A stretch of DNA of 33,063 bases from Microcaldota archaeon (lineage in GTDB: Archaea > Micrarchaeota > Micrarchaeia > Micrarchaeales > CABMGC01), in assembly GCA_021848095.1 (NCBI GenBank), contig JAJZMZ010000017.1:1-33063 (forward strand), read 5' to 3'. Positions within the stretch are counted from its first letter, which is position 1; each line of letters begins with the position of its first letter. The position numbers and the translations under genes are program-made. A model generated the notes under the pieces. It saw nothing but the letters and a program-made list of their open reading frames with translations. It made no database searches and had not been told where the DNA came from. Positions 3,001 to 33,045 of the stretch are shown in pieces.

Positions 3001-3480
3001 ACTTGTTGTTGGAGAGTAAGTATATGTTGAAGATGTTGCTCCAGGAATAACTGTATTTGTACTTCCTGAAATAGTATACCATTTATATGAGTAAGGTGAT
3101 GTTCCACCATTTACTGTAGAAGTTAATTTTACGCTTTGACCGACATCCATTATTGTGTTTGTTGGAGCTACTGTTAGTATAGGATCAGTATTTACTGTTA
3201 CAGTTGTTTGTTTAGAAAGTATTGATACAGGTGTTGTTGCACTGTCAGTTACATTAACATAGAATATATAATTTCCAATAGTTGATTTACCAGTGGTTAC
3301 AAAATCATAAGTTGAGCTAGTTGCACCAAGTATTTTTGAGAAAACACCACTTCCCGGAAGCTCTTGATACCATTGATATGAGTAAGGTACTGAACCACCT
3401 TTTACATTTGCGGATAAAGTAGTACTTTGTGATAAATCTATAGTTGTTGAAGGAGATACTGAAACAGTCATTTGTGGATT
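1..3480 (-). repeat. ~100-aa (about 300-bp) tandem protein-domain repeats
   Basis: Codons for the GG(T/V)PPY-type motif occur at 337, 637 and 937 (exactly 300 bp apart), and again near 2209, 2827, 3103 and 3397. The repeat is diverged at DNA level. Confidence 0.7.
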
Positions 3481-7864: not shown

Positions 7865-8887
7865 ATGGATAGCATAATAGTTAAAGCGCCTTGCGTAGTT
7901 AAGTTGTTTGGAGAACATGCAGTAGTTCATGGAAAAACTGCAGTAGCAATAGGTATAGGTTTATATGCTACTGCAACATTTAAAATAGAAGAACAAAAGT
8001 TATTTAAAGTAGTTTTAGTAGATTTGAAAAAAGAAATACCTGTAGATGAAAAGTTATTGAGTAAATTATATGAAAAGTATATCAGAAAGGAAAGCATTGA
8101 TTTTTATATAAAAGAAAATTTAAGTATTGATAAAGATATTTTACCATATATTACAATACTTTCTATTAGTTATTGTAAATATAATTGTATTATTTTTGGA
8201 GAAATAAAAGTAACATCTGAGATACCAAAACAAAGTGGCTTAGCTAGTAGTGCTTCTTGCTACACTGCTTTTACAATGGCAATATTAAAAGCTAATAGTA
8301 AAAAATTAAGTGATGAAGAAGTTATAGAGCTAGCTAGAGATGGAGAAAGAGTATCGCACAAAAACGAAGGTGCTGGACGTATAGATGTAAGTACAGCTTA
8401 TTATGGCGGTTATGTAAGCTTCTCAGGAGCTAAGTTCATAAAGCACGAATTAAACGCTAAGCCTAATTTACTTATAATAAACACAGGACCTAAGCTACCA
8501 ACATCAGAAACAGTAGGTAGAGTAACCAAGCTACTAAAGGAAAGAAAGGAGTACGCAGAAGGCATACTAGATAAGATAAATGAGTGCTCGGTGAAGGGCT
8601 TAGAATACTTATATAAGAATAACTTCCAAAAGGTTGGAGAGGTAATGTATGAGAATCAAGAGCTACTCAGAACACTTAATGTATCATCAGACAAGCTAGA
8701 CAAAGCAGTAAGCATAGCTAGGAAGCACAAAGCTCACGGAGCTAAGCTAAGCGGTGGTGGCGGTGGAGGCGTAGCTGTTGCTATTCTTGAAGCACATAAC
8801 GCAGTACTAGAAAAGGAGCTTTCAGATGAAGGCTTTGTATGTATTAAAACAGAGATCTCTGAAACTGGAGCTAAAGAGAGTAATTAA
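7865..8887 (+). CDS. mvk: Mevalonate kinase (GHMP kinase)
   Basis: 340 aa: APCVVKLFGEHAVVHGKTAVA, PKQSGLASSASCYTA (GHMP ATP loop), KLSGGGGGGVAVAI. Confidence 0.9.
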   Translation: MDSIIVKAPCVVKLFGEHAVVHGKTAVAIGIGLYATATFKIEEQKLFKVVLVDLKKEIPVDEKLLSKLYEKYIRKESIDFYIKENLSIDKDILPYITILSISYCKYNCIIFGEIKVTSEIPKQSGLASSASCYTAFTMAILKANSKKLSDEEVIELARDGERVSHKNEGAGRIDVSTAYYGGYVSFSGAKFIKHELNAKPNLLIINTGPKLPTSETVGRVTKLLKERKEYAEGILDKINECSVKGLEYLYKNNFQKVGEVMYENQELLRTLNVSSDKLDKAVSIARKHKAHGAKLSGGGGGGVAVAILEAHNAVLEKELSDEGFVCIKTEISETGAKESN

Positions 8888-8924
8888 TATTTAAAATTTA
8901 ATGTATATTATATAATGTGAGTTT

Positions 8925-10001
8925 ATGAACAGTAAAGTGATAACGGCATTGGCTACACCAAACATAGCTATGATAAAGTACTGGGGTAAAAGAGATTACA
9001 CAGGATTAAACACTCCGAATAACTCAAGCATTAGCATGACGCTTGATGAGACATTAAACACAAAAACAACTGTTATGTTTTCAGATAAATTAGATTCTGA
9101 TAAATTATACATAAATGGAGTTGAAGAAAACATACACGGAGATAATGTTTCAGAAAAATCAAAGTACATTAAAAATACACTTATAGAAATGAGAAAACTT
9201 TCAGGTGTTAAAGAAAATGTAGTAGTTGTTTCAGAAAATAACTTCCCTTCAGGAGCTGGAATAGCATCTAGCGCTTCTGGAGCTGCTGCTTTAATTTATG
9301 CATTGAATGAAGCCTTAGAGCTTAAAATGGATGGAAAACAACTTTCTATAATGGCAAGAAAAATAAGCGGAAGCGCTTGTAGAAGTGTTTTTGGAGGAAT
9401 AGTTAAATGGAATGTTGGTTCTCATGATGACGGAAGTGATTCATTTGCAGAGATGGCCTTCGATGTACAACATTGGAAAGAACTTATAGACATGATAGCG
9501 GTTGTTGATCCAGACACAAAGAAAGTATCTTCAAGTATAGGTCACGAAGCTACTGTAAGAACTAGCGTTTTATATAAAAATAGAGTACCTTTTGCAGAAG
9601 AAGGAGTCACTAAAATAGAAGATGCAATAAAGAACAAAGATCTTGATAGTTTATCAAAAGTTATAATGCGTGATAGCAACAACATGCACGCTACAATGTT
9701 AGATACATGGCCACCTATAATGTATCTGAATGACTCTTCAAAGGAAATTGTTTATAAAATACACCAATTGAATGATTCACAACAAGACAAAAAATGTATT
9801 GCAGGTTATACATTTGATGCTGGACCAAATGCACACATAATAACAACTGATGAACATAAAGAAGAAGTGCTTACTGCATTAAAGGATGTTCAAGGTATTA
9901 AGAAAATATTTGAATCTCATCAAGGAGTAGGACCAAGAATACTTCCAGAAAATGAGTCTTTATTAGATGAAAATACATTGACACCTAAGAAGATGAAGTA
10001 A
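8925..10001 (+). CDS. mvaD: Diphosphomevalonate or phosphomevalonate decarboxylase
   Basis: 358 aa: TPNIAMIKYWGKRD, PNNSSISMTLDE, PSGAGIASSASGAAA, SGSACRSVFGGIVKW, AGYTFDAGPNAH. Lys, Arg and Asp positions of the decarboxylase catalytic set look retained. Phosphorylation state of the substrate cannot be decided from motifs. Confidence 0.85.
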   Translation: MNSKVITALATPNIAMIKYWGKRDYTGLNTPNNSSISMTLDETLNTKTTVMFSDKLDSDKLYINGVEENIHGDNVSEKSKYIKNTLIEMRKLSGVKENVVVVSENNFPSGAGIASSASGAAALIYALNEALELKMDGKQLSIMARKISGSACRSVFGGIVKWNVGSHDDGSDSFAEMAFDVQHWKELIDMIAVVDPDTKKVSSSIGHEATVRTSVLYKNRVPFAEEGVTKIEDAIKNKDLDSLSKVIMRDSNNMHATMLDTWPPIMYLNDSSKEIVYKIHQLNDSQQDKKCIAGYTFDAGPNAHIITTDEHKEEVLTALKDVQGIKKIFESHQGVGPRILPENESLLDENTLTPKKMK

Positions 10002-10798
10002 TGCAAACAGTATTTATCAAGATAGGAGGAAGTGCAATAACTGACATAAATAAGGAAAGCACTGCAAAAAAAGAAGAGATAAAACGTTTGTTAAATGAAA
10101 TAAAACCTTGCTTAAATAAAAAGAAGGTTTTAGTAGGTCATGGAAGTGGCTCTTTTGCACATATTCCTGCACATAAATACAAACTAAATTTAGGACTTAC
10201 AGAAAAAGATAGTTTATATGGCGCTTCTGTAACGCAAAGCGCAGCTGCAAAGTTACATAGAATAGTAGTAGAGTGTGCAGTGCAAGAAGGACTTTCTACT
10301 TTTTCTTTTTCTCCATCCACTACGGCAGTAGCTGAAAGTGGTAGGATATTTAATTGGGACGTATCCGCAATTGAAAAAGCACTTGAGTTGGGATTTTTGC
10401 CAATAACTTATGGTGATGTTGTTTTAGATAAAAAACAAGGTGTTTGCATAGCTTCAACAGAAGAAGTTTTCAGAGCACTTTCTAAAAAAATAAAACCAGA
10501 AAAGTTGATTATAGGTACAGATGTTGATGGCATATTTGATAAAGATCCTAAATTAAGTCCCGATGCTACATTAATTAAAGAAGTAAATAAAAATAACATA
10601 AAAGATGTATTAAATTACTCGGGAAAATCAACAAAGATTGATGTTACAGGTGGAATGAAAAGTAAAGTTTCACACCTTTATGAAATATCAAAAGAAACAG
10701 GAGCTGTTTGTCAAATTGTAAATTTACAAAAACCTGGAAGATTAAAAGATGCAATATTAGGAAATGAAGTTATTGGAACAATAATTAATGCAAATTAG
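10001..10798 (+). CDS. Isopentenyl phosphate kinase (amino acid kinase family)
   Basis: 265 aa: FIKIGGSAITD, VGHGSGSFAHIPAHKY (IPK-type His), GTDVDGIFDKDP, DVTGGMKSKV. Start overlaps the previous stop (TAATG). Confidence 0.88.
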   Translation: MQTVFIKIGGSAITDINKESTAKKEEIKRLLNEIKPCLNKKKVLVGHGSGSFAHIPAHKYKLNLGLTEKDSLYGASVTQSAAAKLHRIVVECAVQEGLSTFSFSPSTTAVAESGRIFNWDVSAIEKALELGFLPITYGDVVLDKKQGVCIASTEEVFRALSKKIKPEKLIIGTDVDGIFDKDPKLSPDATLIKEVNKNNIKDVLNYSGKSTKIDVTGGMKSKVSHLYEISKETGAVCQIVNLQKPGRLKDAILGNEVIGTIINAN

Positions 10799-14034: not shown

Positions 14035-14592
14035 ATGGCAAGACCAGATAAAAAAATTAAAAAGAATATTGTGGAAGAATTTTCTGCAATTGTTGCAGAT
14101 GGAATGTACAGAGATAACAATTTAGGTGTTGTTCCTTTAACAAAAACTATTCAGAAAAAACTAAAGGTACTTCCAGGAGATATAATAGAGTTAAGTTTTA
14201 GTGGTAAAAAGACAGTTGCAACTGTAATAGAGGGTTACAACAAGGACTCAAAATCTAATTATGTAAGATTAGATAAAAGAACTAGAGATCAATTAGGAAT
14301 AATATTAGGTGAAGAAATAACATTAACAAAACCACAGGTTTTCAATGCAAATGAAGTAATTGTAAGGCCAAAAGGAAAGATACCGCATACAATACCAGTA
14401 CCGATAGATTGGCAAACATACTTTAGACAAAGATTAGTAAACAAAGGAGTTATAGAAGGCGATAAGATAAGCATGCCAGTCTTAGGAGTTAACATTGAGT
14501 TTGATGTTGTAAATGTACAACCTTTAGGTGTTTGTAAAGTAACTTCAGAAACTACATTTGATTTTTCTGAAAACAGACAAGCTTGTTGTTAA
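14035..14592 (+). CDS. Stand-alone Cdc48/VAT N-terminal-domain-like protein (no AAA module)
   Basis: 185 aa. LKVLPGDIIELSFSGKKTVATVIEG..., NYVRLDKRTRDQLGIILGEEITLTKPQVFNANEVIVRP, VEGDKISMPVLG...FDVVNVQPLGVCKVTSETTFDFSE follow the Cdc48 N-domain layout (double-psi barrel plus CDC48_2). No Walker A/B. Ends -RQACC. Confidence 0.75.
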   Translation: MARPDKKIKKNIVEEFSAIVADGMYRDNNLGVVPLTKTIQKKLKVLPGDIIELSFSGKKTVATVIEGYNKDSKSNYVRLDKRTRDQLGIILGEEITLTKPQVFNANEVIVRPKGKIPHTIPVPIDWQTYFRQRLVNKGVIEGDKISMPVLGVNIEFDVVNVQPLGVCKVTSETTFDFSENRQACC

Positions 14593-14620: not shown

Positions 14621-14998
14621 TTAATTTTTATAAGAATACTTCTTATTTTTTGGTTTTTCTTCTATTTGTTCTTCTATCTCAATTACAGAGTTTAATCTTA
14701 TACCTAAATCAGCTATTTTATAACCAATACTTGCAAATAAAAATAATATTATTATTTGTATTATTTCGTAAATCGGACCAGATAATACATTTGATATGTT
14801 AGTTGCTAAAGTATTGAAAGAGTTAGTAATATTATTTCCAGATATTTTATTTGATGTTTGCAGTAGTGAAGACTTACTTGCAGAGTTATATAAACCATAA
14901 CCCATGAAAAAAGCTATTACAATTAATAAAACACCTAAAACAATCAATATGTCTCCTTTATAAGCCATCTTATCACACTGAATAATATTAATTAGCAA
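14621..14998 (-). CDS. Small membrane protein, two predicted TM helices
   Basis: 125 aa (alternative Met start at 14968). Hydrophobic segments ILIVLGVLLIVIAFFMGYGLY and IIQIIILFLFASIGYKI; charged C-terminus. Confidence 0.55.
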   Translation of the reverse strand: MLINIIQCDKMAYKGDILIVLGVLLIVIAFFMGYGLYNSASKSSLLQTSNKISGNNITNSFNTLATNISNVLSGPIYEIIQIIILFLFASIGYKIADLGIRLNSVIEIEEQIEEKPKNKKYSYKN

Positions 14999-15027
14999 TA
15001 TATTAAATAACTTGTTTTTATTAGTTA

Positions 15028-15951
15028 TTAAGACTTTAATTCTTTTTTAATTTTGTTTGCTATCTCAACTCCAACGATATGTATGGCTTCTCTTGTTGAA
15101 GCGCCTATATGTGGAGTCATTATAAGATTTTTATTTTTTAATGCGTAATTTACGAACCTATTTCCTTTTTTAAGAAATGGTTCTTCTGGAAAAACATCCA
15201 ATGCTGCACCAGATATTATATGTTTTTTCAAAGCTACAAAAAGATCATTTGTGTTTATAACCTCGCCTCTTGAGGTATTTATTAGAAGTGCTGTTTTTTT
15301 CATTAGCTTAAACTGTTTTAATTGCAACATGTTTCTTGATGAAGTAGTAAGCATAGGATGTAGCGATATTATATCAGATGTTTTTAAAAGAGTGTTTAAT
15401 GAAACTAAAGGAACTGAGTTTTTTTTGATAAATGGATCATAGGCTATTACTTTCATATCAAATGCTTTTGCATACTCTGCAACCTGTGAACCTATTCTTC
15501 CAAGACCTATTATTCCGAGAGTTTTTCCATTTAATTGAGTACCTATAAACTTGTACCTTTCCCATTTACCATTTTTAAGATTTTCAAATGCCCAGGGAAT
15601 ATTACGTGAAAGAGCTAGCATTAAAGCAATAGTGTGTTGTGCTGTTGGAAGAGTATGTGCACCATGAAGATTTAATACCTTTATCTTTTTCTTTTTTGCA
15701 TACTCTATATCGATATGATTAAGCCCAGTTGTTGCTGAACCTATTAACTTTAGATTAATTGCTTTATCTAGTATCTTCTTTGTAACTTTTGTATCTACTC
15801 GTATAACTAGTATGTCAAAAATGTGAATTTTTTTCAAAAGTTCTTCGTTACTCATGTTTTTTGCAGTTACATTTCCAATGCCATTAAGTATTTTCATTGC
15901 ATCTTTGTCGAAGTATTCTGGATTATTTACTAAAATATTTAATTTTTGCAT
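15028..15951 (-). CDS. D-isomer-specific 2-hydroxyacid dehydrogenase (phosphoglycerate dehydrogenase-like)
   Basis: 307 aa: Rossmann GKTLGIIGLGRIGSQVAEYAKAF, catalytic NTSRGEVI, DVFPEEP, TPHIGAST. Confidence 0.88.
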   Translation of the reverse strand: MQKLNILVNNPEYFDKDAMKILNGIGNVTAKNMSNEELLKKIHIFDILVIRVDTKVTKKILDKAINLKLIGSATTGLNHIDIEYAKKKKIKVLNLHGAHTLPTAQHTIALMLALSRNIPWAFENLKNGKWERYKFIGTQLNGKTLGIIGLGRIGSQVAEYAKAFDMKVIAYDPFIKKNSVPLVSLNTLLKTSDIISLHPMLTTSSRNMLQLKQFKLMKKTALLINTSRGEVINTNDLFVALKKHIISGAALDVFPEEPFLKKGNRFVNYALKNKNLIMTPHIGASTREAIHIVGVEIANKIKKELKS

Positions 15952-15974
15952 TTTTACACATCGAAATTAAATTT

Positions 15975-17387
15975 TTATGCCATTGATGACTCTTGTGCCC
16001 TAGGATCTGTTGCTTTTATGATTTTTGTAACTGAACTTTTATTGAAGCCTTTGAATCCTTTTGTTCGTTCAAGATCCTCCATGTGACTACCTATTGCTCC
16101 GTTTTTTAAAAAATTATTGTATTGTTCTTTAGTTATTGAAGAGTTAGAGAGTAATTTATCTAATCGTGATTTTTCAACACGCCATAACTCTCCAGAAGTG
16201 AATGCTTGTTTTAAAAACTCAAAGTTAGAAAAGGGTGGCATCACAGTTACCCCAAATTTTGGAAGACTATTTCTTAAAGAGTTAAAATCAAATCTTGCTT
16301 CTAAATGATGCATACCAGCTTGAAGAATACTTTCGCCATGAAGTCCTACCCACAAACCAACTGTTCCTAATGTTTTTCTTTGTTGTAATCCTTTATGTGG
16401 AAAATCAATATCTGTTTCTTCAGAGTAAAGATCAACATCTGTAAATACAACTATATCGCAAACGTCATGTTCCATTATTTGAGCTCCCCAATGTGCTTGA
16501 TCACCTGCATAATATTTTTCTCTGCAAGTATAACCCATTAACTCAAAAATATGTATCATTTTTGAGAAGTTTTGTCTTGAAGAACGATATGTATGATGGT
16601 CTTGATTGCCCCAACCTAAACCTAATTTATCTTGCCTTGATTTTTGTACCTGTCCTGCTAAGTTTCTCCTTTGCCAGTATGCCCTTTCTGATCTGAAAAA
16701 TGCATCAGATACTCTTGCATTATCTAACTTTGAAAGTGCAGAATAAATTAATTTTTCTGTAAACTTTATTCCTTCATTATCATTTTTGAAGTAACGTTGT
16801 CGTGAAAAAAACATGCTCAAAACTGTTAGGTACTCAAAGACATCGTCTTTTGAATTTGTTGAAAAACCATTGTAACCGCGTCTTTCAACAGCAGATAATG
16901 TATAACTTCCTTCTTTTGAAATTATTGCTTTTCTAAAACGTGAAAATGGTTTACCTTCGATATTTGTATTTACTCCAATAGCTTGTATAAAATTATCAAG
17001 TTCTTCTGGTTTCAACACAACCTCAGTTTCATTACTTTTTCCAAGTATTACAGGAAAGAAGTAAGATCTACTGTGTTTGAATGGCTTTCCATATTTACAT
17101 TTTTTATCAACAGGAATAAATTTGCTAAACCCAAGTTTCAGAAGTGCTTTCTCATTTGTTTTACTTTCTGGAATAACAACATAATCCACCCAGTTAAAAA
17201 ACTTTGTTGATGTTTCTGTTGACATTTTTTTAGATAACTGAGCTGCAAACTTATTTTTTTTAAGAAAGTTATTAATTATTGAGGTAAGAAACTTTTCAGT
17301 TTCTGGATAAAGTTTCCAATCAAACTCTTCATTTATTGATGCATCATTTTTGTCTTCGTATTTGTTTTTGTTTTTAGAGTTTACCAT
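15975..17387 (-). CDS. Uncharacterised 470-aa protein; possibly VOC/DUF1338-like metalloenzyme fold
   Basis: 470 aa with His/Glu-rich blocks NQDHHTYRSSRQNFSKMIHIFELMGYTCREKYY, GAQIMEHDVCDIVVFTDVD and LQAGMHHLEARFDF. Layout resembles paired VOC modules, but the family is not confidently recognised. Confidence 0.6.
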   Translation of the reverse strand: MVNSKNKNKYEDKNDASINEEFDWKLYPETEKFLTSIINNFLKKNKFAAQLSKKMSTETSTKFFNWVDYVVIPESKTNEKALLKLGFSKFIPVDKKCKYGKPFKHSRSYFFPVILGKSNETEVVLKPEELDNFIQAIGVNTNIEGKPFSRFRKAIISKEGSYTLSAVERRGYNGFSTNSKDDVFEYLTVLSMFFSRQRYFKNDNEGIKFTEKLIYSALSKLDNARVSDAFFRSERAYWQRRNLAGQVQKSRQDKLGLGWGNQDHHTYRSSRQNFSKMIHIFELMGYTCREKYYAGDQAHWGAQIMEHDVCDIVVFTDVDLYSEETDIDFPHKGLQQRKTLGTVGLWVGLHGESILQAGMHHLEARFDFNSLRNSLPKFGVTVMPPFSNFEFLKQAFTSGELWRVEKSRLDKLLSNSSITKEQYNNFLKNGAIGSHMEDLERTKGFKGFNKSSVTKIIKATDPRAQESSMA

Positions 17388-17401
17388 TATTTCACAATTA
17401 T

Positions 17402-18241
17402 TTATTTTGTGGGTTTATAGCTAAACTTTTTGCCTTTCCAGATATCTTCATCTCCCCATAATCCAGCACGCCAAGCATTGAACTCGACTAATTGAGAGTA
17501 ATCAATGAAAAGATTTACATCCTTACCGAATTTTTTAAGATACCATTTGAATACAGGCGGATCTGAAGCTTCAAACATGAACTTATCAAAGCCAAACTCA
17601 TTTGTTATTTTTTTAATTAAATCTAAACGCCATTTATTTGGAGGAAGATCTTCAGTCAAACCTTCTGACTCTATCATTATTACATCAACACCTGCTTTGA
17701 TATGTGCCGATAACTCTGACATTACATCATCTATTTTGCGCATCTTCATTTCTCCTTCGTAACCTACCCTATGAGTACCTCCACCTGCATCATACATAAA
17801 TGAAACTTCAGGTTTTGCTTTCATACCTTTCTTTTGAACCTGCTTAACTATCTCTACTTTATCTTTTAATGAAATGTCAACAAAACCACTAGATACTTCT
17901 ATAACATCGAAGCCCAAGGATTTACACTCTTTTATGTATTGATCAACTGCCTTTGAGCCTTGAACAATTATACGTTCAACAAAACCCCCAGTAGATACAT
18001 AAACTCCATGATCATGACATGCATCAAGAATATCTTTTACTGTTTTTTTCGAAAGAAAACGCTCAGAACCTCCTGCAAATTTATATCCATCAAAGTAATT
18101 GCTCCAATCATGCAATAAGCCTTTCAAGTAACCGTAAGTTATTGAGGAGTAGTAAGGACCTCTGATTTCTATTATTCCTTTCTTTCTTGGCTTTTTTGGT
18201 AGTTCATATATATCGAGAAAATCAAATGCTCTTTTTTCCAT
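17402..18241 (-). CDS. Phosphosulfolactate synthase-like (ComA/HSA32 family) TIM barrel
   Basis: DGYKFAGGSERFLSKKTVKDILDACHDHGVYVSTGGFVERIIVQG, SLGFDVIEVSSGFVDIS, FIDYSQLVEFNAWRAGLWG. The track starts at 18307; the internal Met at 18241 (MEKRAFDFLDI) removes the overlap with the upstream gene. Confidence 0.75.
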   Translation of the reverse strand: MEKRAFDFLDIYELPKKPRKKGIIEIRGPYYSSITYGYLKGLLHDWSNYFDGYKFAGGSERFLSKKTVKDILDACHDHGVYVSTGGFVERIIVQGSKAVDQYIKECKSLGFDVIEVSSGFVDISLKDKVEIVKQVQKKGMKAKPEVSFMYDAGGGTHRVGYEGEMKMRKIDDVMSELSAHIKAGVDVIMIESEGLTEDLPPNKWRLDLIKKITNEFGFDKFMFEASDPPVFKWYLKKFGKDVNLFIDYSQLVEFNAWRAGLWGDEDIWKGKKFSYKPTK

Positions 18242-18245
18242 AAAA

Positions 18246-19595
18246 TCACATACATAAATCAAATAAACACGATATCTTTTTAATACTTTCAAGATTTCGT
18301 AGTTCATTTAGTAAAATCATTGATTTATTTTTGCTTAAGGACATTGAAGCAAGAGTGATGAACTTTTGTTCTAACTCTTTTTTACTCATTGGATTTTTAG
18401 GATGACCTTTTTGATAATAAACAACCTTATCTATTGTTTTATTTTTAGTAATTACATTTATTTCATTAGAGATACATGAAGGATACCTCGCAGTTAGCTC
18501 CTTCTTTTCTTTTACTGTTGTTAATTTTAGTAGTTTATTGATTCTGTTATCAGTTAATCTTTTCTCTGAATACGACTCAGGAGTTATGTCTCCATAAATT
18601 AATGCAGAACAAACAATAAATGGAAGACTATGATCTGCAGTTTCCTTTGTTTTTGGAGACCATTTTTCCTTGTCTTTCCCTAAAACTTTGTAACCACTTT
18701 CTGTTGTTAATATATTGATTTTTTTAATTTCATCTATGTTTTTGATTTCTTCTTTTGCAGATATTGCAGCTGTTATTGCACTTTGAGAACGTATCTCTGC
18801 AGGATAAAACTTAGTTATTCTTTGATTTATTAAAAATTGATTTTTTTTATTTCCAAATGTCTTTGTACTTAAATTAAACTTACCAGTTACTTGTTTCCAA
18901 AAACCCATCTCGCCTTCAAAGATTGGAGATGGCCCGGTTATGCCATTATTAGCTAGTTTAGCTGAGAATATTGCGTCTTTTGCAGCATTAGGAAATGATA
19001 TTGCTTTCCACATAGAGAGCTCGCCTGCACGTACCTGTCTCATAGCTATATGGGAGTTTAATGCTATGTTTATAGCTTGGGTGGTTTTTTTAACTCCTGA
19101 TTCCATTAAAAATGATGATGCAGTAGCAACACTAACTAAACCATAGCTAGTGTGATCCCAGCCTTTCTTCCATAAGCTCGCAGCTGTAGAAAGGCGGCAT
19201 TGTACTTCGTAAGCTAGTGCTATTGCAACAATGACATCTTTGCCTGTTCTGTTGTATTCTTCAGCTACGGCGAGCAATGGCATTATATTATCACTAGGAT
19301 GTGCAAACTCCTTCGACTCGAAAGAGTCATTATAGTCTAAATATCTAGACATTATTCCGTTCACAAAACCAGCGTCTTCAGAGCTAGCTTTTTCACTTGA
19401 ACATAATATTGAAGCTCCTTCTTTGCTTTTTTTAATTGTCTTTTTTGCGATTTGCACAGGAACCGCTTTCTGTGCGCCTAATGCGCAACCAAATGTATCT
19501 ATAACAGCGTCTTTTGCAATTTCTATTGTTTTACTAGGTAGTATTTTATAAGACAATGAATTTGCATACTCACTAATATCTTCTGCTAATGTCAT
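18246..19595 (-). CDS. MmgE/PrpD family protein (2-methylcitrate dehydratase-like)
   Basis: 449 aa: AVIDTFGCALGA, GIMSRYLDYNDSFESKEFAHPSDNIMPLLAVAEE, WKAISFPNAAKDAIFSAKLANNGITGPSPIFEGEMGFWK, ADHSLPFIVCSAL. Confidence 0.88.
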   Translation of the reverse strand: MTLAEDISEYANSLSYKILPSKTIEIAKDAVIDTFGCALGAQKAVPVQIAKKTIKKSKEGASILCSSEKASSEDAGFVNGIMSRYLDYNDSFESKEFAHPSDNIMPLLAVAEEYNRTGKDVIVAIALAYEVQCRLSTAASLWKKGWDHTSYGLVSVATASSFLMESGVKKTTQAINIALNSHIAMRQVRAGELSMWKAISFPNAAKDAIFSAKLANNGITGPSPIFEGEMGFWKQVTGKFNLSTKTFGNKKNQFLINQRITKFYPAEIRSQSAITAAISAKEEIKNIDEIKKINILTTESGYKVLGKDKEKWSPKTKETADHSLPFIVCSALIYGDITPESYSEKRLTDNRINKLLKLTTVKEKKELTARYPSCISNEINVITKNKTIDKVVYYQKGHPKNPMSKKELEQKFITLASMSLSKNKSMILLNELRNLESIKKISCLFDLCM

Positions 19596-19599
19596 AATC

Positions 19600-20685
19600 T
19601 CACTTTTTAATTTTTTTAATAATAGCCTTTGTCATTTCAGTAGTTGAAACTGGATTTTTAGGAGTTATGTCATAAGTAACATTAGTTTTTTCCTTTAGTA
19701 CTGAATAAACTGCATCTTCAAGAGCTTTTGAAGCTTTAATTTCTCCTAAATGATTCAATAGCATAGCTCCAGATAAAATTGCTGCTGAAGGATTAACATC
19801 GTTTTTTCCGGAATGTTTTGGTGCCGAACCATGTACAGGTTCAAAAACTGCCATACTTTTGCCTATGTTTGCACTTGGTGCAATGCCTAGACCTCCAACA
19901 AGTCCAGAACATAAATCAGAGATTATATCGCCGTATAAATTAGGACATAATAAAATATCAAAAAGTTCTGGTTTTGAAACTAATTTTGAACATGCGTTAT
20001 CTACAACTAAGTTATCACAAATTATTGATTTGAATTTTTTTGATACTTTTTCAGCTTCACTAACAAATAATCCATCAGTATATTTCAAAATATTTGATTT
20101 ATGTATTATTGTGACTTTTTTTCTTTTGTTTTTTTGTGCGTATGCAAATGCAAACTCTGCAACTCTTTTAGTAGCTGTTTTTGATATTGTTTTAAGTGCA
20201 ATTGAGCTATCATTAGGTATTTTTAATTTTGAATCTTTTTCAACAAATTTTATTAATTTTTTTGACAAGAAAGAGCTCTCTTTGAACTCTATCCCAGAAT
20301 AAAGATCCTCTGTATTTTCCCGTATTACTATTAAATTTACATTTGAAAAGTTAGTTTTAATTCCCTGAATTGTTTTTGTAGGCCTTACATTTGCAAATAA
20401 CTCAAGTTTTTTTCTAAGTTCTACATTGACACTCCTAAAACCTTTGCCTAATGGAGTTGTTATTGGTCCTTTTAATGCAAACTTATTTTTTCTAATAGAA
20501 CTTAAAGTTTCAGTAGGAAGTAATGAACCATACTCGTTTAATGCAACCTCTCCTGCAATATGTTTTTCCCAGTTTATTGAGAAGTTATATTTTTCAGAAA
20601 CTGTATTTATGCATTGCATAGCTGAGTTGATTACTTCTGGACCTATCCCATCTCCCGGTACAACAGTTATTGTATATTTTTTCAT
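19600..20685 (-). CDS. icd: Isocitrate dehydrogenase-like beta-decarboxylating dehydrogenase
   Basis: 361 aa: VVPGDGIGPEV, GKGFRSVNVELRKKLELFANVRP (SxNxxLR isocitrate-type motif), RENTEDLYSGIE, HKSNILKYTDGLF, EPVHGSAPKHSGKNDVNPSA. Confidence 0.87.
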   Translation of the reverse strand: MKKYTITVVPGDGIGPEVINSAMQCINTVSEKYNFSINWEKHIAGEVALNEYGSLLPTETLSSIRKNKFALKGPITTPLGKGFRSVNVELRKKLELFANVRPTKTIQGIKTNFSNVNLIVIRENTEDLYSGIEFKESSFLSKKLIKFVEKDSKLKIPNDSSIALKTISKTATKRVAEFAFAYAQKNKRKKVTIIHKSNILKYTDGLFVSEAEKVSKKFKSIICDNLVVDNACSKLVSKPELFDILLCPNLYGDIISDLCSGLVGGLGIAPSANIGKSMAVFEPVHGSAPKHSGKNDVNPSAAILSGAMLLNHLGEIKASKALEDAVYSVLKEKTNVTYDITPKNPVSTTEMTKAIIKKIKK

Positions 20686-20689
20686 AATA

Positions 20690-21835
20690 CTACTTTCTTT
20701 TTGATATAGGTATAAACTTTAGGTTTAAATTCCCAGTATACTCTTCAAGTGGTCTTATTAGCCTATTATTTTTATACTGTTCTAAGATATGTGCTAACCA
20801 TCCTGAACTTCTTGCTATTGCAAATATTGGCGAATACAACTCATGTGTAAGATTAAGATTATGGTAAACTATTGCAGAATAAAAATCAACATTTGGGTAT
20901 ATGTTCTTTTTATCTGACATCATATGTTCTAATTTTTGACCAATCTCAACATATGTTGTGTTGTTGTTTTTTGCACTTAGATTTTCAGCCATTTTTTTAA
21001 GTATTTTTGCTCTTGGATCATATACTTTGTATATTCTATGACCATAGCCCATTACTCTTCCATGAGATAAAATTATCTTATTTACATAAGAGGATACATT
21101 CTCTGGTTTTTTGATATTCTTAAGCATTAGCAATACTTCGGTAGCTGCACCTCCGTGTAAAGGACCTTTTAAAGTTCCAATACCTGTAGTATATGCAGAA
21201 TGGACATCACTTAATGTAGAGACAGTTACCCTCACTGAAAAAGATGATGCGTTAAATCCGTGTTCTGCATGAAGAACAAAGTCCTTATCTAAAACTTCTG
21301 CTCCTTCAGAATCAGGAATTTTTCCAGTTAACATATATAGAAAATTTTCTGCATGAGATAACTTTGGATTTGGAGGTATTGGAGTTTTTGAGTTTTTTAT
21401 TCTGTAATGATAAGCAACTATAGTAGGCATCTTTGCAATTATTGATAAACCTGTATCTAGCTTTTCTTCATATGATGAAATTCTTGAGTCTTTGTCATTA
21501 GAAGATAATGAACTGACTACGGTTCGTAGAGCTTCCATAGAGCTCATATTTTTTGTAAATGTGTGCAACATACGTATAGTATGTTTTGGAAGTGCTCTCT
21601 TTCTTTTAAGTGTTGTTGAAAAGTTTTTAAGTTCATTTTTATTTGGAAGTTTTCCGTATATTAAAAGATATGACACTTCTTCAAAAGTACAGTTTTCAGC
21701 TATGTCTTCTATAGAGTAACCACGATAAAACAGCCTTCCTTTTAATCCGTCAATAAAAGAAATATTAGTTTGACCTGCTATAATACCCTCAAGTCCTTTT
21801 ACTTTGACATTTGAATTTTTGTTAATTTTTGCCAT
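20690..21835 (-). CDS. gltA: Citrate synthase / 2-methylcitrate synthase family
   Basis: 381 aa: GLEGIIAGQTNISFIDGLKGRLFYRGYSIEDIAE, LHAEHGFNASSFSVRV, GTLKGPLHGGAA, GYGHRIYKVYDPRA, NVDFYSAIVYH. Confidence 0.92.
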   Translation of the reverse strand: MAKINKNSNVKVKGLEGIIAGQTNISFIDGLKGRLFYRGYSIEDIAENCTFEEVSYLLIYGKLPNKNELKNFSTTLKRKRALPKHTIRMLHTFTKNMSSMEALRTVVSSLSSNDKDSRISSYEEKLDTGLSIIAKMPTIVAYHYRIKNSKTPIPPNPKLSHAENFLYMLTGKIPDSEGAEVLDKDFVLHAEHGFNASSFSVRVTVSTLSDVHSAYTTGIGTLKGPLHGGAATEVLLMLKNIKKPENVSSYVNKIILSHGRVMGYGHRIYKVYDPRAKILKKMAENLSAKNNNTTYVEIGQKLEHMMSDKKNIYPNVDFYSAIVYHNLNLTHELYSPIFAIARSSGWLAHILEQYKNNRLIRPLEEYTGNLNLKFIPISKRK

Positions 21836-21982: not shown

Positions 21983-23338
21983 ATGGAAAATGATTACGAT
22001 GTAATAATTGTAGGAGGAGGAGTAATAGGCACATCATTGTTGTATACACTTTCAGAGTTTACAGACATTAATAATATACTTTTAATAGAAAAGAAAAAAA
22101 TAGGTAGAGGTTCATCTTGGAGTCACAGTAATAGTCAAACATTACATGTAGGAGACATAGAAACAAATTACAACACAGAAAAAATAATAGAAACTAGAAC
22201 AGCGTCGCATCTAATTTTAAAGTATACAAAAAAACTTAGAGAAAGTAATTTTATAAAACCAGTACAGAAAATGGTATTAGGAGTTGGTAACGAAGAAGTA
22301 GAGAATATAATAAAAAGATATGATGAAAAATTTATTTCTCTTTTTCCAAGTATTAAAGTTATAAAAACATCTGAGATATTAAAGGTTGAACCAAATTTAA
22401 TTAAAGGTAGAGATAAAGATGAAGAAGTTATTGCTGCTTATTCCAAAGATGGACACATGGTGAACTTTGGCTTGTTGTCTTCTTCTTTTGTTAATTCAGC
22501 ACTAAAAAGTAAGAAGAATATAAAATTACGATTAAATGAAGAAGCAATAGATATCGAAAGAAAAAATGCCCATTATATAGTAAAAACTGAAAAGTCAACA
22601 TATAGGGGAAGATTTGTTGTTTTTGCAGCTGGAGGATATAGTTTATACTTTGCAAAAAAATTAGGTTATGGTAGAGATTTGTCTATGCTTTCAGTAGCAG
22701 GTAATTTTTATTATTCAAGAAATGTAATTAAAGGAAAAGTTTATAGAGTTCAAAAAGGTGGAATACCTTTTGCTGCGGTGCATGCAGATGTAGATATTAC
22801 AAATAAAAAAATAACAAGATATGGACCTACTGTAAATATAGTTCCATTTTTAGAGCATACAAATGTAATGTCAACATATAAATACATCAAAGCAATGGGT
22901 CTTGATAAGGAAACTGTTGAAAGTTTAATCAACATATCGGAGGATAAAGATATACAAAGAATAGTAGAAAAAAACTTTATCTACTCGATACCTGATTTAG
23001 GAAAGTATTACTTCTTAAAAGAAGAGGTAAATAAAATAATTCCTAGTTTAAAGTATAATGATATAAAATTCTATAAACAAGGTGGAGGAATACGGCCACA
23101 GATAATAGATAAAAAAATGAGGAGGTTAATATTAGGAGTAGTAGATTTAAGAGGAGATGGAATTGAGTTTTCAATGGCACCTTCCCCAGGAGCTAGTTCT
23201 TGTTTAAAAGAAGCATTAAAATATACAAGAAGTGCAACTGAATATTTAGATAAAAAATTCTATAAAGAAAAATTTGTAAAGATGTTTTGTAATAATGAAG
23301 AAGAGTATAAACTCTTGACAAAAAAACAAAAACATTAA
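21983..23338 (+). CDS. mqo: FAD-dependent malate:quinone oxidoreductase-like protein
   Basis: 451 aa: DVIIVGGGVIGTSLLYTLSE, GSSWSHSNSQTLHVGDIETNYN, VVFAAGGYSLYFAKKLGYG, GGGIRPQIIDK, GIEFSMAPSPGASSCL. Confidence 0.75.
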   Translation: MENDYDVIIVGGGVIGTSLLYTLSEFTDINNILLIEKKKIGRGSSWSHSNSQTLHVGDIETNYNTEKIIETRTASHLILKYTKKLRESNFIKPVQKMVLGVGNEEVENIIKRYDEKFISLFPSIKVIKTSEILKVEPNLIKGRDKDEEVIAAYSKDGHMVNFGLLSSSFVNSALKSKKNIKLRLNEEAIDIERKNAHYIVKTEKSTYRGRFVVFAAGGYSLYFAKKLGYGRDLSMLSVAGNFYYSRNVIKGKVYRVQKGGIPFAAVHADVDITNKKITRYGPTVNIVPFLEHTNVMSTYKYIKAMGLDKETVESLINISEDKDIQRIVEKNFIYSIPDLGKYYFLKEEVNKIIPSLKYNDIKFYKQGGGIRPQIIDKKMRRLILGVVDLRGDGIEFSMAPSPGASSCLKEALKYTRSATEYLDKKFYKEKFVKMFCNNEEEYKLLTKKQKH

Positions 23339-26000: not shown

Positions 26001-29000
26001 ATGGTTAGAAGTTTTTATAAAAGGAAAAAGGATAAACAACTTATATTATTAAATAAAGTTTTACTTATAATTCTTATTGGTATAATTTTAATACCTGTTA
26101 TTTTTACAATAAATAAAACAACTACAACTAATAGTAGCAACATTCATTTAATAAAAAATAATAATATTACGAATAGAACAAATGAGAATACATCAAATAG
26201 AAAGATATTAAATGTACAAAAACAAACAGAAACAGAGGCACAACTACAAGCATTTGATGCAAAATATTACTCTTATTATGATGTTTTATTAATATGTAAT
26301 CCTGCAAGCCAAGAAAGTGAAAATGTTTGTAATTACTTTAAAAATGCAAGAATAAATGAGGGATTTAACACATCTCACGTTCTTAATTTGACTAATATTC
26401 CTAACTCTGAGTATGTTAATAACACGGTGACAAACTCGATATTGCTTCAGATAAAAAATAAATTAGCAATTACACCAAATATACAATATATAGTAACAAC
26501 AGTAGGAGTACCACTCGATGATAACGCATATACAAATCCATACATTGGTGTTGGAGCATCAATAGATTCGCTTATTGCAGATAACTTAACAAACAATCCA
26601 GTAGATTTGTGTGGTAATTGTGCAGGTAGTGTTAGTAATCCGTATTATGGTAGTCTTGAATACGGCTTTGGTGCAGGTGAATTAATAAATCAGTATACTT
26701 TAGAACAAATAGTATTCAATAATTCAAATCCTTCATATAGAGGGATGTATATAGTAACAAGATTAGATGGGCCAACACAACAAAGTATATATAATCTTAT
26801 AAATGATGCATCTAATGCGAAAGACGCATATAGTAGCGGCAATATACTTTTAGTTGGAAATACAAGTGGGTATTTAACTGATAGTTTAGAATATGAGATG
26901 GTAGACTCAAATTCACTTTTAAATGATATTCCTAAAAATACTACATATGTACTAAATACTTTTCCAATAGGTAATAAAGGATTATCAGGGTATATTTCGT
27001 GGGGTTCAAATTGTGGTTGCAACGCAGGTCAGAATTCTAGTAAATGGAATTATGGTTTTGTCCCAGGAGCTATTGGCGAGACATATGTTTCTTCTAGCGC
27101 AAGAACTCTTTTACAATATCCATGGACTGGAGGTCAATCACTAATATCAGATTTAATACTTGACAACATAACAGGGGTAAGTGGATATGTTAGTGAACCA
27201 TTTACTACTTGTTTAGAACAATCAGATCTACTTCTTCCATTATATTATGGGGGTTTGACATTAGGAGATGCTTTTTACGCGGCTATGCCATGTCTAGAAT
27301 GGAAAAATGTAGTTATAGGAGACCCTAAGGCACACGTATTTACATTTGACGCAACACAACCAGTACTTTCTACGTTAATAACAAATGTTTCAACAACAAA
27401 TATTAAAACTGGTGAAAATCTTACGATTACTTTAAAAGTATATAACGAAACTGTATATTATGATAATGAAAGTGAATCAGGATCAACGACATATTTAGCA
27501 TCTTTAAGAACAGGTCAATCTAGTTCTTGTTCGCAGGATAGTAATTACACCAAAGGAATAGGATCTTTTGGTATAGGAGTGTATACTCGTAGTATTAATA
27601 TAACTCCAAATAGTACAGAGTATTATTGTTTTTATGTACAACAACAAGGACACAATGTAGGTACAGGTGCAATTATTTATGCACCGGTACAATATTCGCC
27701 TACAGTTTTAGTAAAGTATAACTCGCAGAATATTTCTACAAGTACCTCAACAAGTACAAGCACCAGTACTTCGACTTCGGTTCAGACAACAACACCTACT
27801 ACAAAAACCACTACATCTACAAGTACTTCGACTTCGGCATTAACTACTCAGACTACAACTTCAACAAGTACAAGCACTAGTACTTCTACTAGCACCTCGA
27901 CTTTAATTACTACTAGTACATTACCAGTTATCACAACCCCAACAACTACAACAATTCCACAAATTACGTCTAACTTAAATAACTTTTTTCAAAATTCAAA
28001 TGCAAATATTGGAATTGCACCACAACTTACTTCAATATATGGAGAATTTGATAATGGGAAAAATGTATTTGATTTTTATGATAACTTCAATGGAAAAATA
28101 TTGGGCACTGTTTGGAATACAGTACAATCATGCCAATACGGGATAGCCGTAAATAATGGAGCTAGTATAAATACATCCTACTGCCCATACCAATATTCAG
28201 GTGTTCCGTCCCCAATAACTTCACCCAATAATGGAATAATATTATCATATGTTAAAAATGTTAAAGGAACAGGAACGGTTATATGGTGCTGGTTACATAA
28301 TGGAGGTTATTGCGGTCCGAGTGAAAATATTCAGAACGGAAGTGTTTACCTATATTCAGATGCTCCAGGAAATGATCTGAATTTATACGCGATAGATATA
28401 TTGACATCTAATAATATAACTTCGTTCAAAGATTACACATTAAATTTCATAGGAATAGCCACATACCCACCAAATGGAGTAATGCCAACAGTAAAAACAG
28501 GAGGTATTTATAACTCTGGAAATGGAGTTTGTGGAAGTATTCCGAGCTCATTAAAATCTGAAACCGAATACTGTATACCAATAAGTATTCAAAATACTCA
28601 GACTGTAGCGATGAAGAGTGGATCTGATTTAATGATACCGTTTAATTCATTAAATTACTCGAATTACTTAGCTACAACTTTACAAAATATTTATTTATAT
28701 AATAAAACTTCTGGAAGTACAGCTCCTGCATGGATTCAAGGAAACGCATCTAACGGAGCACAGTATACTAACTTAAATATGGTAAATAATGTTAGTCTTT
28801 GGGTAAAACTTCCTGAAACACTGCAAGGAACAAGTATAGACAATAATTGGGTAATAGGCGTAGGAGGTATAGGAATACAACAAACCACTTCAACAACCAC
28901 AACCGCTCCGATAGGTGGCGGAGGAGGTGGGGGCGGTGGAGGAGCAGCCGCTGGTGGTGGATTACCACACCCTACCGTAATTGGAACTGAATATGGTTAT

Positions 29001-30320
29001 TTAGTAACAAACATAGGAGTCCCTGCAACATTTACATTTGATTATTGTGGTCAGAATGTATTCAGTACATTAAACTTTATAAGTCCTGATTCTGCAGGAA
29101 TTACATTAAATAATCAACCATATACATTAAACTTAAATACTCAACCGATAGAGGTATTAGGAAACACTAAATGTAGTATGCAGTTGTATAACGTTTCGTA
29201 CATACCATTACAACAAACAGTTGCAATAAAGTTCTTTGAAAATAACGTACAGAGTAGCTCAAATACAACTAAACTTCAAAATAGTACTGTAAATACTAGT
29301 ACAAGTACTGGAACAACTAATTTAATAAATACAACAAAAGCTTCAACAAGTAACTTCACAGTAATACAAAATTCTGGAAAGAACTTCTCAGTAACAAATA
29401 CAAACTCATTCGGTTCAACATTTAATTTGAATGCTTCTTCTCCAATAACTATTTATCAAACAGGAAGTAGCTATAAGTCAGTAGATGTTGTACTTTCTTC
29501 TGAAACAGAAGCAAATGCAACTGTAAATATAAATATTCCAAAAATAAATTATACAGTACCTAAAGGATATTCTAAGTTATTAACAATATTTAACTTAACT
29601 GTAAAAAGCAACTCTAACTCATTAAAAATAAGTACAAATATGTCTTATCAGTGTAGTATTCCAGAAAGTAAGATAAAACCATATGTATTTGAGAATAACA
29701 CATGGGTTCAATTAAAGAATTATTCAATAAATGCAAATCGTTGTATAATTACTGTTTACATACCAAAAGACCCAATAATAGGAATTTTTGAGAATATAAC
29801 TGTACAAACTACAACAGCAACAACAACGATTAAAAATATCTTGACTACAACAACACAAAGCGGTAACGCTACAGTTACAGTAAAATCAAGCAATAACTCT
29901 AAATCAGTATTTGGAGATATTTTAGTTGTAATAACAGTAATAGTGGCTTTATCGATTATTTACTTACTTTATAAAATCTTTGAAGATAGAAAAGCTTCGA
30001 ATATTAGCTCAGAAGGTATTAAAGAAATTAGAGAACAGAAACAAGATACAAAAATAGAAAAGACAGATAATGAAACATGGTTTGATGATGAAGATGAAGA
30101 AGAAACTTCTGATGAATATAATAACGACAATAATAATTTAGATGAAGAAAGTAATGATAGTATAAATAATGAAGGTATAGATAAGGAAACTATAAATAAT
30201 GAAACCGCATCAGAAGATAATAACAAAATTAATGAAGAGGATGAATCTTCTTCTAAGGAATATATAAATGAAGAAACTACACAAACAGATACTGAAGAAA
30301 CAACAGAGAGTAATGAATAA
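26001..30320 (+). CDS. Large cell-surface protein: TM anchor, TIGR03790-like domain, Ser/Thr-rich linker, Gly-rich segment, C-terminal TM and acidic tail
   Basis: 1439 aa. N-terminal hydrophobic segment; YDVLLICNPASQESENVCNYF...IQYIVTTVGVPL and GMYIVTRLDG; STSTSTS linker; GGGGGGGGGGAAAGGG; C-terminal TM ILVVITVIVALSIIYLLYKIF followed by a long D/E/N/S tail. Confidence 0.85.
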   Translation: MVRSFYKRKKDKQLILLNKVLLIILIGIILIPVIFTINKTTTTNSSNIHLIKNNNITNRTNENTSNRKILNVQKQTETEAQLQAFDAKYYSYYDVLLICNPASQESENVCNYFKNARINEGFNTSHVLNLTNIPNSEYVNNTVTNSILLQIKNKLAITPNIQYIVTTVGVPLDDNAYTNPYIGVGASIDSLIADNLTNNPVDLCGNCAGSVSNPYYGSLEYGFGAGELINQYTLEQIVFNNSNPSYRGMYIVTRLDGPTQQSIYNLINDASNAKDAYSSGNILLVGNTSGYLTDSLEYEMVDSNSLLNDIPKNTTYVLNTFPIGNKGLSGYISWGSNCGCNAGQNSSKWNYGFVPGAIGETYVSSSARTLLQYPWTGGQSLISDLILDNITGVSGYVSEPFTTCLEQSDLLLPLYYGGLTLGDAFYAAMPCLEWKNVVIGDPKAHVFTFDATQPVLSTLITNVSTTNIKTGENLTITLKVYNETVYYDNESESGSTTYLASLRTGQSSSCSQDSNYTKGIGSFGIGVYTRSINITPNSTEYYCFYVQQQGHNVGTGAIIYAPVQYSPTVLVKYNSQNISTSTSTSTSTSTSTSVQTTTPTTKTTTSTSTSTSALTTQTTTSTSTSTSTSTSTSTLITTSTLPVITTPTTTTIPQITSNLNNFFQNSNANIGIAPQLTSIYGEFDNGKNVFDFYDNFNGKILGTVWNTVQSCQYGIAVNNGASINTSYCPYQYSGVPSPITSPNNGIILSYVKNVKGTGTVIWCWLHNGGYCGPSENIQNGSVYLYSDAPGNDLNLYAIDILTSNNITSFKDYTLNFIGIATYPPNGVMPTVKTGGIYNSGNGVCGSIPSSLKSETEYCIPISIQNTQTVAMKSGSDLMIPFNSLNYSNYLATTLQNIYLYNKTSGSTAPAWIQGNASNGAQYTNLNMVNNVSLWVKLPETLQGTSIDNNWVIGVGGIGIQQTTSTTTTAPIGGGGGGGGGGAAAGGGLPHPTVIGTEYGYLVTNIGVPATFTFDYCGQNVFSTLNFISPDSAGITLNNQPYTLNLNTQPIEVLGNTKCSMQLYNVSYIPLQQTVAIKFFENNVQSSSNTTKLQNSTVNTSTSTGTTNLINTTKASTSNFTVIQNSGKNFSVTNTNSFGSTFNLNASSPITIYQTGSSYKSVDVVLSSETEANATVNINIPKINYTVPKGYSKLLTIFNLTVKSNSNSLKISTNMSYQCSIPESKIKPYVFENNTWVQLKNYSINANRCIITVYIPKDPIIGIFENITVQTTTATTTIKNILTTTTQSGNATVTVKSSNNSKSVFGDILVVITVIVALSIIYLLYKIFEDRKASNISSEGIKEIREQKQDTKIEKTDNETWFDDEDEEETSDEYNNDNNNLDEESNDSINNEGIDKETINNETASEDNNKINEEDESSSKEYINEETTQTDTEETTESNE
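27738..27960 (+). repeat. Low-complexity Ser/Thr-coding repeats
   Basis: Degenerate acaagtac/agtact units; exact 16-mer agtacttcgacttcgg at 27765-27780 and 27822-27837. Confidence 0.8.
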
Positions 30321-32114: not shown

Positions 32115-32516
32115 TTGATAAGATATGATAACATGGATAAAAAAGATAAAAATAATTATAATAAATTAACTAAAGAGGAAGAAGATGTAATCGTAAGAAA
32201 AGGCACTGAAATGCCTTTTTCAGGAGAGTATGAACACGAAAATAGAAAAGGCATTTATATTTGTAAAAGATGTAATGCTCCATTGTACAAATCAGACGAT
32301 AAGTTTGATGCAAACTGCGGATGGCCAAGTTTTGATCAAGAAATAAAAGGAGCTGTTAAAAGAGTACCAGACCCAGATGGAGAAAGAACAGAGATACAGT
32401 GTGCAAACTGTGGAGCACATTTAGGACATGTATTTTTAGGAGAGAGATTTACAAAAAAGAATACAAGACACTGTGTAAACTCAATATCAATGAAGTTTAT
32501 ACCTGATAAAAATTGA
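32115..32516 (+). CDS. msrB: Peptide methionine (R)-S-oxide reductase MsrB
   Basis: 133 aa: GTEMPFSGEYEHENRKGIYICKRCNAPLYKSDDKFDANCGWPSFDQEI, CANCGAHLGHVF, RHCVNSISMKFIP. A later Met at 32133 may be the real start. Confidence 0.93.
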   Translation: MIRYDNMDKKDKNNYNKLTKEEEDVIVRKGTEMPFSGEYEHENRKGIYICKRCNAPLYKSDDKFDANCGWPSFDQEIKGAVKRVPDPDGERTEIQCANCGAHLGHVFLGERFTKKNTRHCVNSISMKFIPDKN

Positions 32517-32520
32517 TTTT

Positions 32521-33045
32521 ATGATTAAAAAGATTGTTTTTGGAGGAGGTTGTTTCTGGTGCACAGAAGCTGTTTTTGCAATGTTAAAAGGTGTGAAAAA
32601 TACAATCCCAGGATATGCAGGAGGTAATAAGCCAAATCCAAGTTATGAAGAAGTTTGTAATGATGATACAGGACATGCAGAAGTTTTAATGATAGAGTAT
32701 GAAGAAGAAAGTATTTCCTTAAATATACTTTTAGAGGTATTTTTTGAGATGCATGATCCAACATCATTAAACAAACAAGGAGCAGATACTGGTACTCAAT
32801 ACAGATCTGCAATATTTTACTCCGATGAACTTCAAGAAAAAGAAATTAGAGAATTTGTAGAGGAAAAACAAAACAAATTTGATAAAAAAATTGTAACTGA
32901 AATAAAAAAACTTGGAGAGTTTTATCCTGCAGAGGAGTATCATAGAAAATATTATGTAAAAAATAAAGAGCAGCCTTATTGTGATTATGTAATAACTCCA
33001 AAAGTTGAGAAAATTAAAAAAGATTTTAAGAAATTTACAAAATAA
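32521..33045 (+). CDS. msrA: Peptide methionine (S)-S-oxide reductase MsrA
   Basis: 174 aa: FGGGCFWCTEAVFAMLKGV, PGYAGG, GHAEVLMIEYE, FFEMHDPTSLNKQGADTGTQYRSAIFY. Confidence 0.95.
   Translation: MIKKIVFGGGCFWCTEAVFAMLKGVKNTIPGYAGGNKPNPSYEEVCNDDTGHAEVLMIEYEEESISLNILLEVFFEMHDPTSLNKQGADTGTQYRSAIFYSDELQEKEIREFVEEKQNKFDKKIVTEIKKLGEFYPAEEYHRKYYVKNKEQPYCDYVITPKVEKIKKDFKKFTK

Follow-up and report, generated by a model that had tools for sequence, protein, structure and literature searches.

How does an organism that encodes both citrate synthase and isocitrate dehydrogenase pass from citrate to isocitrate when its genome lacks an aconitase? This question is raised by a gene cluster of a Micrarchaeota genome (GCA_021848095.1; 41 contigs totalling 0.81 Mb, with a completeness of 91%), which was analyzed within a stretch of 33,063 nt from contig JAJZMZ010000017.1, hereafter the window. 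To our knowledge, aconitase is regarded as almost universal among organisms that use citrate synthase (CS) and isocitrate dehydrogenase (ICDH). In the order to which this genome belongs, the replacement of aconitase by a dehydratase of the MmgE/PrpD family and a ComA-like TIM-barrel protein is well supported on genomic grounds, and the first four genes of the cluster probably form a unit for the oxidative conversion of citrate to 2-oxoglutarate, with these two non-homologous, Fe-S-free proteins in place of aconitase.

The cluster is an operon of six minus-strand genes separated by gaps of 4, 4, 4, 14, and 23 nt. It encodes CS (20690..21835), ICDH (19600..20685), the PrpD-family protein, termed here type A and proposed to be a citrate dehydratase (18246..19595), the ComA-like protein, a proposed cis-aconitate hydratase (17402..18241), an orphan 470-aa protein (15975..17387), and a D-2-hydroxyacid dehydrogenase (15028..15951), with a small transmembrane (TM) protein encoded 29 nt further (14621-14998). 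An earlier note on this DNA had described the operon, its gaps and families, the TM protein, and the ComA-like start at 18241, all of which were confirmed; conservation in 16 homologues favors this start over 18307. The CS protein matches PF00285 (451 bits) and belongs to the type II citrate/2-methylcitrate synthase subfamily, as it exceeds the cut-off of the cit_synth_II model TIGR01800 (480 versus 421). The ICDH protein (PF00180, 354 bits) aligns as GFRSVNV, as in the ICDHs that are its best solved relatives, and has the S-x-N isocitrate-type motif (R-S-V-N); the NCBIfam equivalog cut-offs were not reached. The six-gene order is conserved, together with a divergent gene for a flavoprotein similar to Mqo and L-2-hydroxyglutarate oxidase, in two congeners and in another family of the order (L041, L042, and L043), and the operon therefore reflects more than chance. 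The ComA open reading frame of L041 was masked by an overlap in one listing and is visible in L061.

The earlier note had seen no aconitase-like gene in the window, and the absence extends to the entire genome, in which a PF00330 search for the aconitase superfamily returned 0 candidates; the search found the gene in each of 14 control genomes. A single set of 148 genomes of the order was searched for aconitase, PrpD, CS, ICDH, and ComA. The ComA family was found in 18 of these, exactly the 18 that hold type-A PrpD, and aconitase in none of the 18; the type-A PrpD of one genome (G085) is fragmentary, lies at a contig end, and was classed by its position beside ComA. Both CS and ICDH occur in 82 of the genomes; of these, 63 carry aconitase, 17 carry type-A PrpD with the ComA-like protein, none carries both, and two, which are 73-74% complete, carry neither. 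The Fisher p values, which are not corrected for phylogeny, were 1e-15 for the exclusion and 1.6e-23 for the co-occurrence. When the sample was widened to 295 genomes of the phylum, two further genomes with the ComA-like protein were found, both without aconitase. It is extremely improbable that an aconitase is present in these organisms and was missed through incomplete assembly or sequence divergence: all genomes with the pair are metagenome-assembled and 72-95% complete, but the enzyme is absent from 20 of 20 ComA-like genomes of the phylum and present, at ~480-560 bits, in 63 of 65 comparable genomes with CS and ICDH, and all controls were positive.

Aconitase and the pair also alternate among close relatives. 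Genus g11 comprises seven genomes with aconitase and one with the pair, and genus g23 comprises three and five, respectively. The g23 operon reads MDH-CS-ICDH-AcnA (MDH, malate dehydrogenase) in G061 (L159) and MDH-CS-ICDH-PrpD, with ComA adjoining, in G092, G112, and G087 (L053, L051, and L052), and aconitase and PrpD thus exchange in one slot. In the PrpD tree, the proteins of two genomes of genus g7 (G012 and G117) are placed in separate sublineages and group with members of the other family. Because g11 and g23 are mixed and the g7 proteins are split, the distribution of aconitase and the pair is not explained by a single inheritance through the phylogeny. The distance matrices of PrpD and the ComA-like protein correlate, with r of 0.53 overall and 0.76 for the order alone, exceeding each of 999 permutations. 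The genes for CS, ICDH, PrpD, and the ComA-like protein show a gene fusion-like linkage and remain clustered despite many rearrangements, also in a second phylum. That the six genes are an incidental cluster of a streamlined genome, with no joint function, is therefore very unlikely, and for the first four genes it is contradicted by this cohesion, although short gaps occur everywhere in small genomes and the genes for the 470-aa protein and the hydroxyacid dehydrogenase are indeed separable.

The PrpD of the operon exceeds the curated cut-off in both MmgE_PrpD domains (PF03972 and PF19305; 231 and 144 bits versus 32.1) and remains far below the 2-methylcitrate dehydratase equivalogs TIGR02330 (127 versus 458) and NF006943 (149 versus 575). 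Type-A proteins share the conserved motifs YxDYNDxY, HPSDN, WKA, and PAE. The H277-type FPAH motif of IRG1, a cis-aconitate decarboxylase, is not found in type A, which has PAE (PVE in one protein) as in PrpD, where IRG1 has PAH. Phylogenetic analysis separated type A (clan support 99/96, 17 rows) from a second group, type B (100/100, 15 rows). Within the order, type A sits with CS and ICDH rather than with prpB and prpC, whereas type B is encoded in prpD-prpB-prpC operons and never adjoins a ComA-like gene; the PrpB proteins of the type B operons are 40-48% identical to E. coli PrpB, several with a KKCGH or KRCGH motif. Methylcitrate is thus handled by type B in this order, and type A is used alongside CS and ICDH; since type B takes the methylcitrate role in separate operons without a ComA-like gene, we rejected type A as an ordinary methylcitrate enzyme. 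The methylcitrate operons with their own PrpD clade were found in eight aconitase-containing Micrarchaeota (L165-L172; G017, G026, G100, G022, G118, G031, G076, and G047). We also noted one genome without aconitase, G115 (L173 and contig C4), that has type-A PrpD and the ComA-like protein and, in addition, a second PrpD beside a second CS fragment; the latter may reflect contamination (4%) or a methylcitrate pathway that uses the ComA-like protein.

These data bear on the possibility that the pair serves propionate utilization, with CS acting as methylcitrate synthase, PrpD and the ComA-like protein producing methylisocitrate, and the right half of the tricarboxylic acid (TCA) cycle broken. 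The subfamily of the CS agrees with such a role, as do the PrpB genes adjoining ComA-PrpD in Parvarchaeota and Nanoarchaeota. However, the operon in this order has ICDH and not PrpB, and the genuine prpDBC operons have a separate PrpD clade, have no ComA-like gene, and co-occur with aconitase. Nor would the exclusion of aconitase be expected, because propionate users keep it. We thus consider a methylcitrate function of the pair in this order quite unlikely.

If type-A PrpD acts on citrate, what completes the conversion to isocitrate? E. coli PrpD performs a one-step dehydration of 2-methylcitrate with no rehydration and is promiscuous for citrate (PMC9468356); water is added back to 2-methyl-cis-aconitate by aconitases (PMC5690661). 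Any bypass built on PrpD therefore has to include a hydratase. The proposal of the earlier note that PrpD stands in for aconitase is supported by the mutual exclusion over the 148 genomes, but its route by PrpD alone is probably incomplete, and the ComA-like protein is a candidate for supplying the other half-reaction.

ComA catalyzes the nucleophilic addition of sulfite to the C=C bond of phosphoenolpyruvate (PEP). The ComA-like protein of the operon clearly belongs to PF02679 (219.8 bits versus a cut-off of 25.2) and scores far below the arch_ComA equivalog TIGR03849 for phosphosulfolactate (PSL) synthase (76 versus 280). In the ComA tree, true ComA and YitD are set apart from the ComA-like proteins by a very long branch. 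One genome collection was scanned with the ComA-like alignment, yielding 396 relatives, the best 80 loci of which were used for neighborhood analysis. These 80 proteins retain the ComA scaffold (D51, K54, GG85-86, E89, E115, S117, E145, E191, FE223-224, and N243) but not K137, R170, and K209 of the ComA protein MJ0255, and they have gained the invariant residues R19, E25, R27, Y30, H76, K143-P144, E193, T196-E197, W204, W233-Y234, D247, and Q250, as well as a new N-terminal KPR..E.R..YY motif. H76, K143, H157, R205, and the KPR motif are predicted pocket-lining positions. Based on the model score, the tree, and the residue loss, we rejected the assignment as a true PSL synthase; the loss of K137, R170, and K209 and the low score against the PSL model make PEP/sulfite chemistry unlikely. 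The protein is 96% identical to its counterpart in a near relative (L079). Pairwise distances hinted at a separate acquisition of the window's gene relative to other micrarchaeal ComAs, which we do not claim, as the tree unites the micrarchaeal ComAs (86/80).

PrpD genes were found in the neighborhood of 56 of the best 80 ComA-like loci, in both archaea and bacteria. The archaeal holders are Micrarchaeota, Parvarchaeota/Nanoarchaeota, Woesearchaeota, soil lineages labelled Bathyarchaeota and Thaumarchaeota, and Nitrososphaerales, and the bacterial ones are Chloroflexi, Acidobacteria, Deltaproteobacteria, Armatimonadetes, and Parachlamydiales. This association, and the presence of the ComA-like gene together with type A in 18 of 18 genomes, argue against the view that type-A PrpD alone is a full aconitase catalyzing both half-reactions, with the ComA-like protein co-selected for another task such as formation of a sulfonate or PEP adduct. 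PrpD turns over citrate and cis-aconitate slowly (PMC9468356) and occupies the aconitase slot, but the characterized enzyme does not rehydrate to the iso-form (PMC9468356), and the loss of the three ComA residues, together with the PSL model score, speaks against PEP/sulfite chemistry. A PrpD acting alone is thus an unlikely solution.

In the two-protein route that we favor, type-A PrpD would dehydrate citrate to cis-aconitate, as suggested by its family, the ComA-like TIM barrel would rehydrate the C=C bond of cis-aconitate to isocitrate, as suggested by the genomic context and the chemistry of the family, and ICDH would convert isocitrate to 2-oxoglutarate. Addition of water to cis-aconitate, by analogy with the addition of sulfite to PEP by ComA, would be the simplest reading of the ComA-like protein. 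We infer in this way all substrates of the two proteins and the division of labor between them.

Gene contexts outside the order are in line with such a role. A Woesearchaeota locus (L117) encodes ICDH, PrpD, and CS, then the ComA-like protein and MDH, in a genome without aconitase, and a second one (L131) has a CS-ComA arrangement. Four Parvarchaeota/Nanoarchaeota loci (L123, L125, L127, and L129) read PrpB-ComA-PrpD, with a KRCGH motif in PrpB; the ComA-like protein appears there at the point where 2-methyl-cis-aconitate must become 2-methylisocitrate, which would fit a hydratase role in the methylcitrate cycle. Other contexts were also observed. In the Nitrososphaerales-type ComA-PrpD operons L083, L085, L086, and L106, the next gene belongs to the aldo/keto reductase family (PF00248 in L083). 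In a Parvarchaeota genome without aconitase (L116), a gene for a fumarase/aspartase-family lyase lies directly upstream of the ComA-like gene, which has a stop within the matched stretch, and PrpD is convergent.

Several points weigh against the proposed route. It draws on genomic evidence rather than biochemistry, from genomes that are metagenome-assembled, and the reaction of the ComA-like protein is an extrapolation from that of ComA; we know of no hydratase in the ComA family. In E. coli PrpD, W110-G111 contacts the methyl group; type A has F/P-A/S at this position, but the archaeal methylcitrate-operon type has lost W110-G111 as well. Because this change is shared with type B, it is no proof of citrate specificity for type A, and we discarded the position as a marker of citrate versus methylcitrate, since it is altered in all archaeal groups. 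Furthermore, 44 of 50 non-micrarchaeal ComA-like genomes have some aconitase-superfamily match. In 13 soil archaea with a PrpD related to type A, 12 of which have CS, these matches are short (<=482 aa, LeuC-like by length) or fragments, and an aconitase of ~900 aa is absent, but a full-length aconitase accompanies the pair in one soil archaeon (G176), three Parvarchaeota/Nanoarchaeota (G183-G185), Nitrososphaerales, and several bacteria. The pair therefore need not act on citrate everywhere, and we rejected its interpretation as an aconitase replacement in all organisms; in aconitase-containing genomes it may serve methylcitrate, a second, oxygen-tolerant aconitase activity, or another acid. 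The broader proposal, in which PrpD as citrate dehydratase and the ComA-like protein as cis-aconitate hydratase make up a two-protein Fe-S-free aconitase and the pair, across many phyla, isomerizes citrate-type acids in general by dehydration and hydration, methylcitrate among them, seems to us evenly poised.

The last two genes of the operon have a different distribution. The 470-aa family was found in 26 of the 295 genomes of the phylum, all from one order and one of them as a fragment, with a mean identity of 65% in 25 sequences and no match in Pfam, NCBIfam, or PDB sequences. Its gene occurs in genomes with aconitase and in those with PrpD/ComA alike, also elsewhere in the chromosome, and is therefore not part of the replacement. 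In 15 of 25 genomes it lies beside a gene for an NAD-type D-2-hydroxyacid dehydrogenase and in nine of 25 beside one for a GlcD-type FAD D-2-hydroxyacid dehydrogenase, never both; the dehydrogenase of the operon is of the NAD type, PGDH-like, without an ACT domain (PF02826/PF00389). The two genes thus form a module separable from the first four. The earlier note had joined the last three genes into one branch from PEP or a 2-oxo acid, which the data do not support, as the ComA-like protein belongs with PrpD and the remaining two genes are found equally in aconitase genomes. An AlphaFold2 model of the 470-aa protein from 25 sequences (pLDDT 78.5, pTM 0.82; an earlier model from nine sequences had a pLDDT of 55 and was not used) points to a possible VOC fold, and its top Foldseek matches are all HPPD or hydroxymandelate synthase (E 4e-6, prob 1.00, with TM-scores of only ~0.2). 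An HxxxR motif had suggested membership in the HglS family (2-oxoadipate dioxygenase, PF07063), which was rejected by the lack of a Pfam match and an hhalign probability of 0.2% against YdcJ. Tentatively, the modeled fold suggests that the protein might be a VOC-type 2-oxoacid dioxygenase producing a D-2-hydroxyacid, which the partner dehydrogenase would reoxidize.

The divergent Mqo-like gene (21983..23338, plus strand; PF06039, 94 bits) stays beside the CS operon in relatives, and MDH holds that place in others; malate oxidation upstream of CS is a possible function of the flavoprotein. On the other side, the operon adjoins a gene for a stand-alone CDC48 N-domain protein (14035-14592; 185 aa, CDC48_N and CDC48_2, without the ATPase domain), which is kept in the congeners (L041 and L042). 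Elsewhere in the window, mevalonate kinase, (di)phosphomevalonate decarboxylase, and isopentenyl phosphate kinase are encoded in tandem (7865-10798), and the decarboxylase scores over the diphosphomevalonate model and far under the phosphomevalonate model, which together with the isopentenyl phosphate kinase gives a mixed signature for the variant of the mevalonate pathway. The genes at 1-5247 and 26001-30320 encode predicted surface proteins that are very large, repetitive, and rich in S/T, the latter with a C-terminal TM segment, an acidic tail, and no Pfam match. Tandem genes for the methionine sulfoxide reductases MsrB and MsrA (32115-33045) are consistent with oxidative stress.

Within the TCA cycle, the Fe-S cluster of aconitase is the textbook site of sensitivity to oxygen and iron. 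If the proposed route is correct, the repeated exchange of aconitase for a two-protein, cluster-free system would show that this step is replaceable, a function would be assigned to a large ComA-like family (the 396 relatives in one genome collection) now annotated as PSL synthase, and "incomplete TCA" calls in small archaeal genomes would be corrected. The TCA cycle of these archaea would then contain a non-orthologous displacement, and the enzyme function would possibly be new for the ComA family. Among open-licence papers, none was found that describes a replacement of aconitase by PrpD or a ComA-like protein; studies of Micrarchaeota listed a near-complete TCA cycle or aconitate hydratase as present, with no further comment (PMC5864196, PMC5468238).

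Compared with known systems, the 470-aa protein has its best fold matches in the group of HglS, hydroxymandelate synthase, and HPPD, the first two of which also yield 2-hydroxyacids, but it is order-specific, with low TM-scores and no detectable sequence relation to HglS. The ComA-like protein shares PF02679 and the acidic and GG core residues with ComA, HSA32, and YitD, but forms a long-branch clade that has lost the three basic residues and gained the N-terminal motif. Type-A PrpD shares family, fold, catalytic motifs, and, as proposed, the dehydration of a citrate-type substrate with the 2-methylcitrate dehydratases PrpD/MmgE, and differs from them in its equivalog scores, the W110-G111 position, and its CS-ICDH context. 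In the AcnD-PrpF system of the methylcitrate cycle, two proteins likewise replace a single dehydratase step, but AcnD is an Fe-S aconitase homologue, PrpF is an isomerase, and rehydration still needs AcnB (PMC5690661). Unlike aconitase itself (AcnA/AcnB), the pair consists of two proteins that are non-homologous to it and have no Fe-S cluster ligands, and aconitase is absent wherever the pair occurs in the order, but the two proteins would together accomplish the same net conversion of citrate to isocitrate from the same slot next to CS and ICDH.

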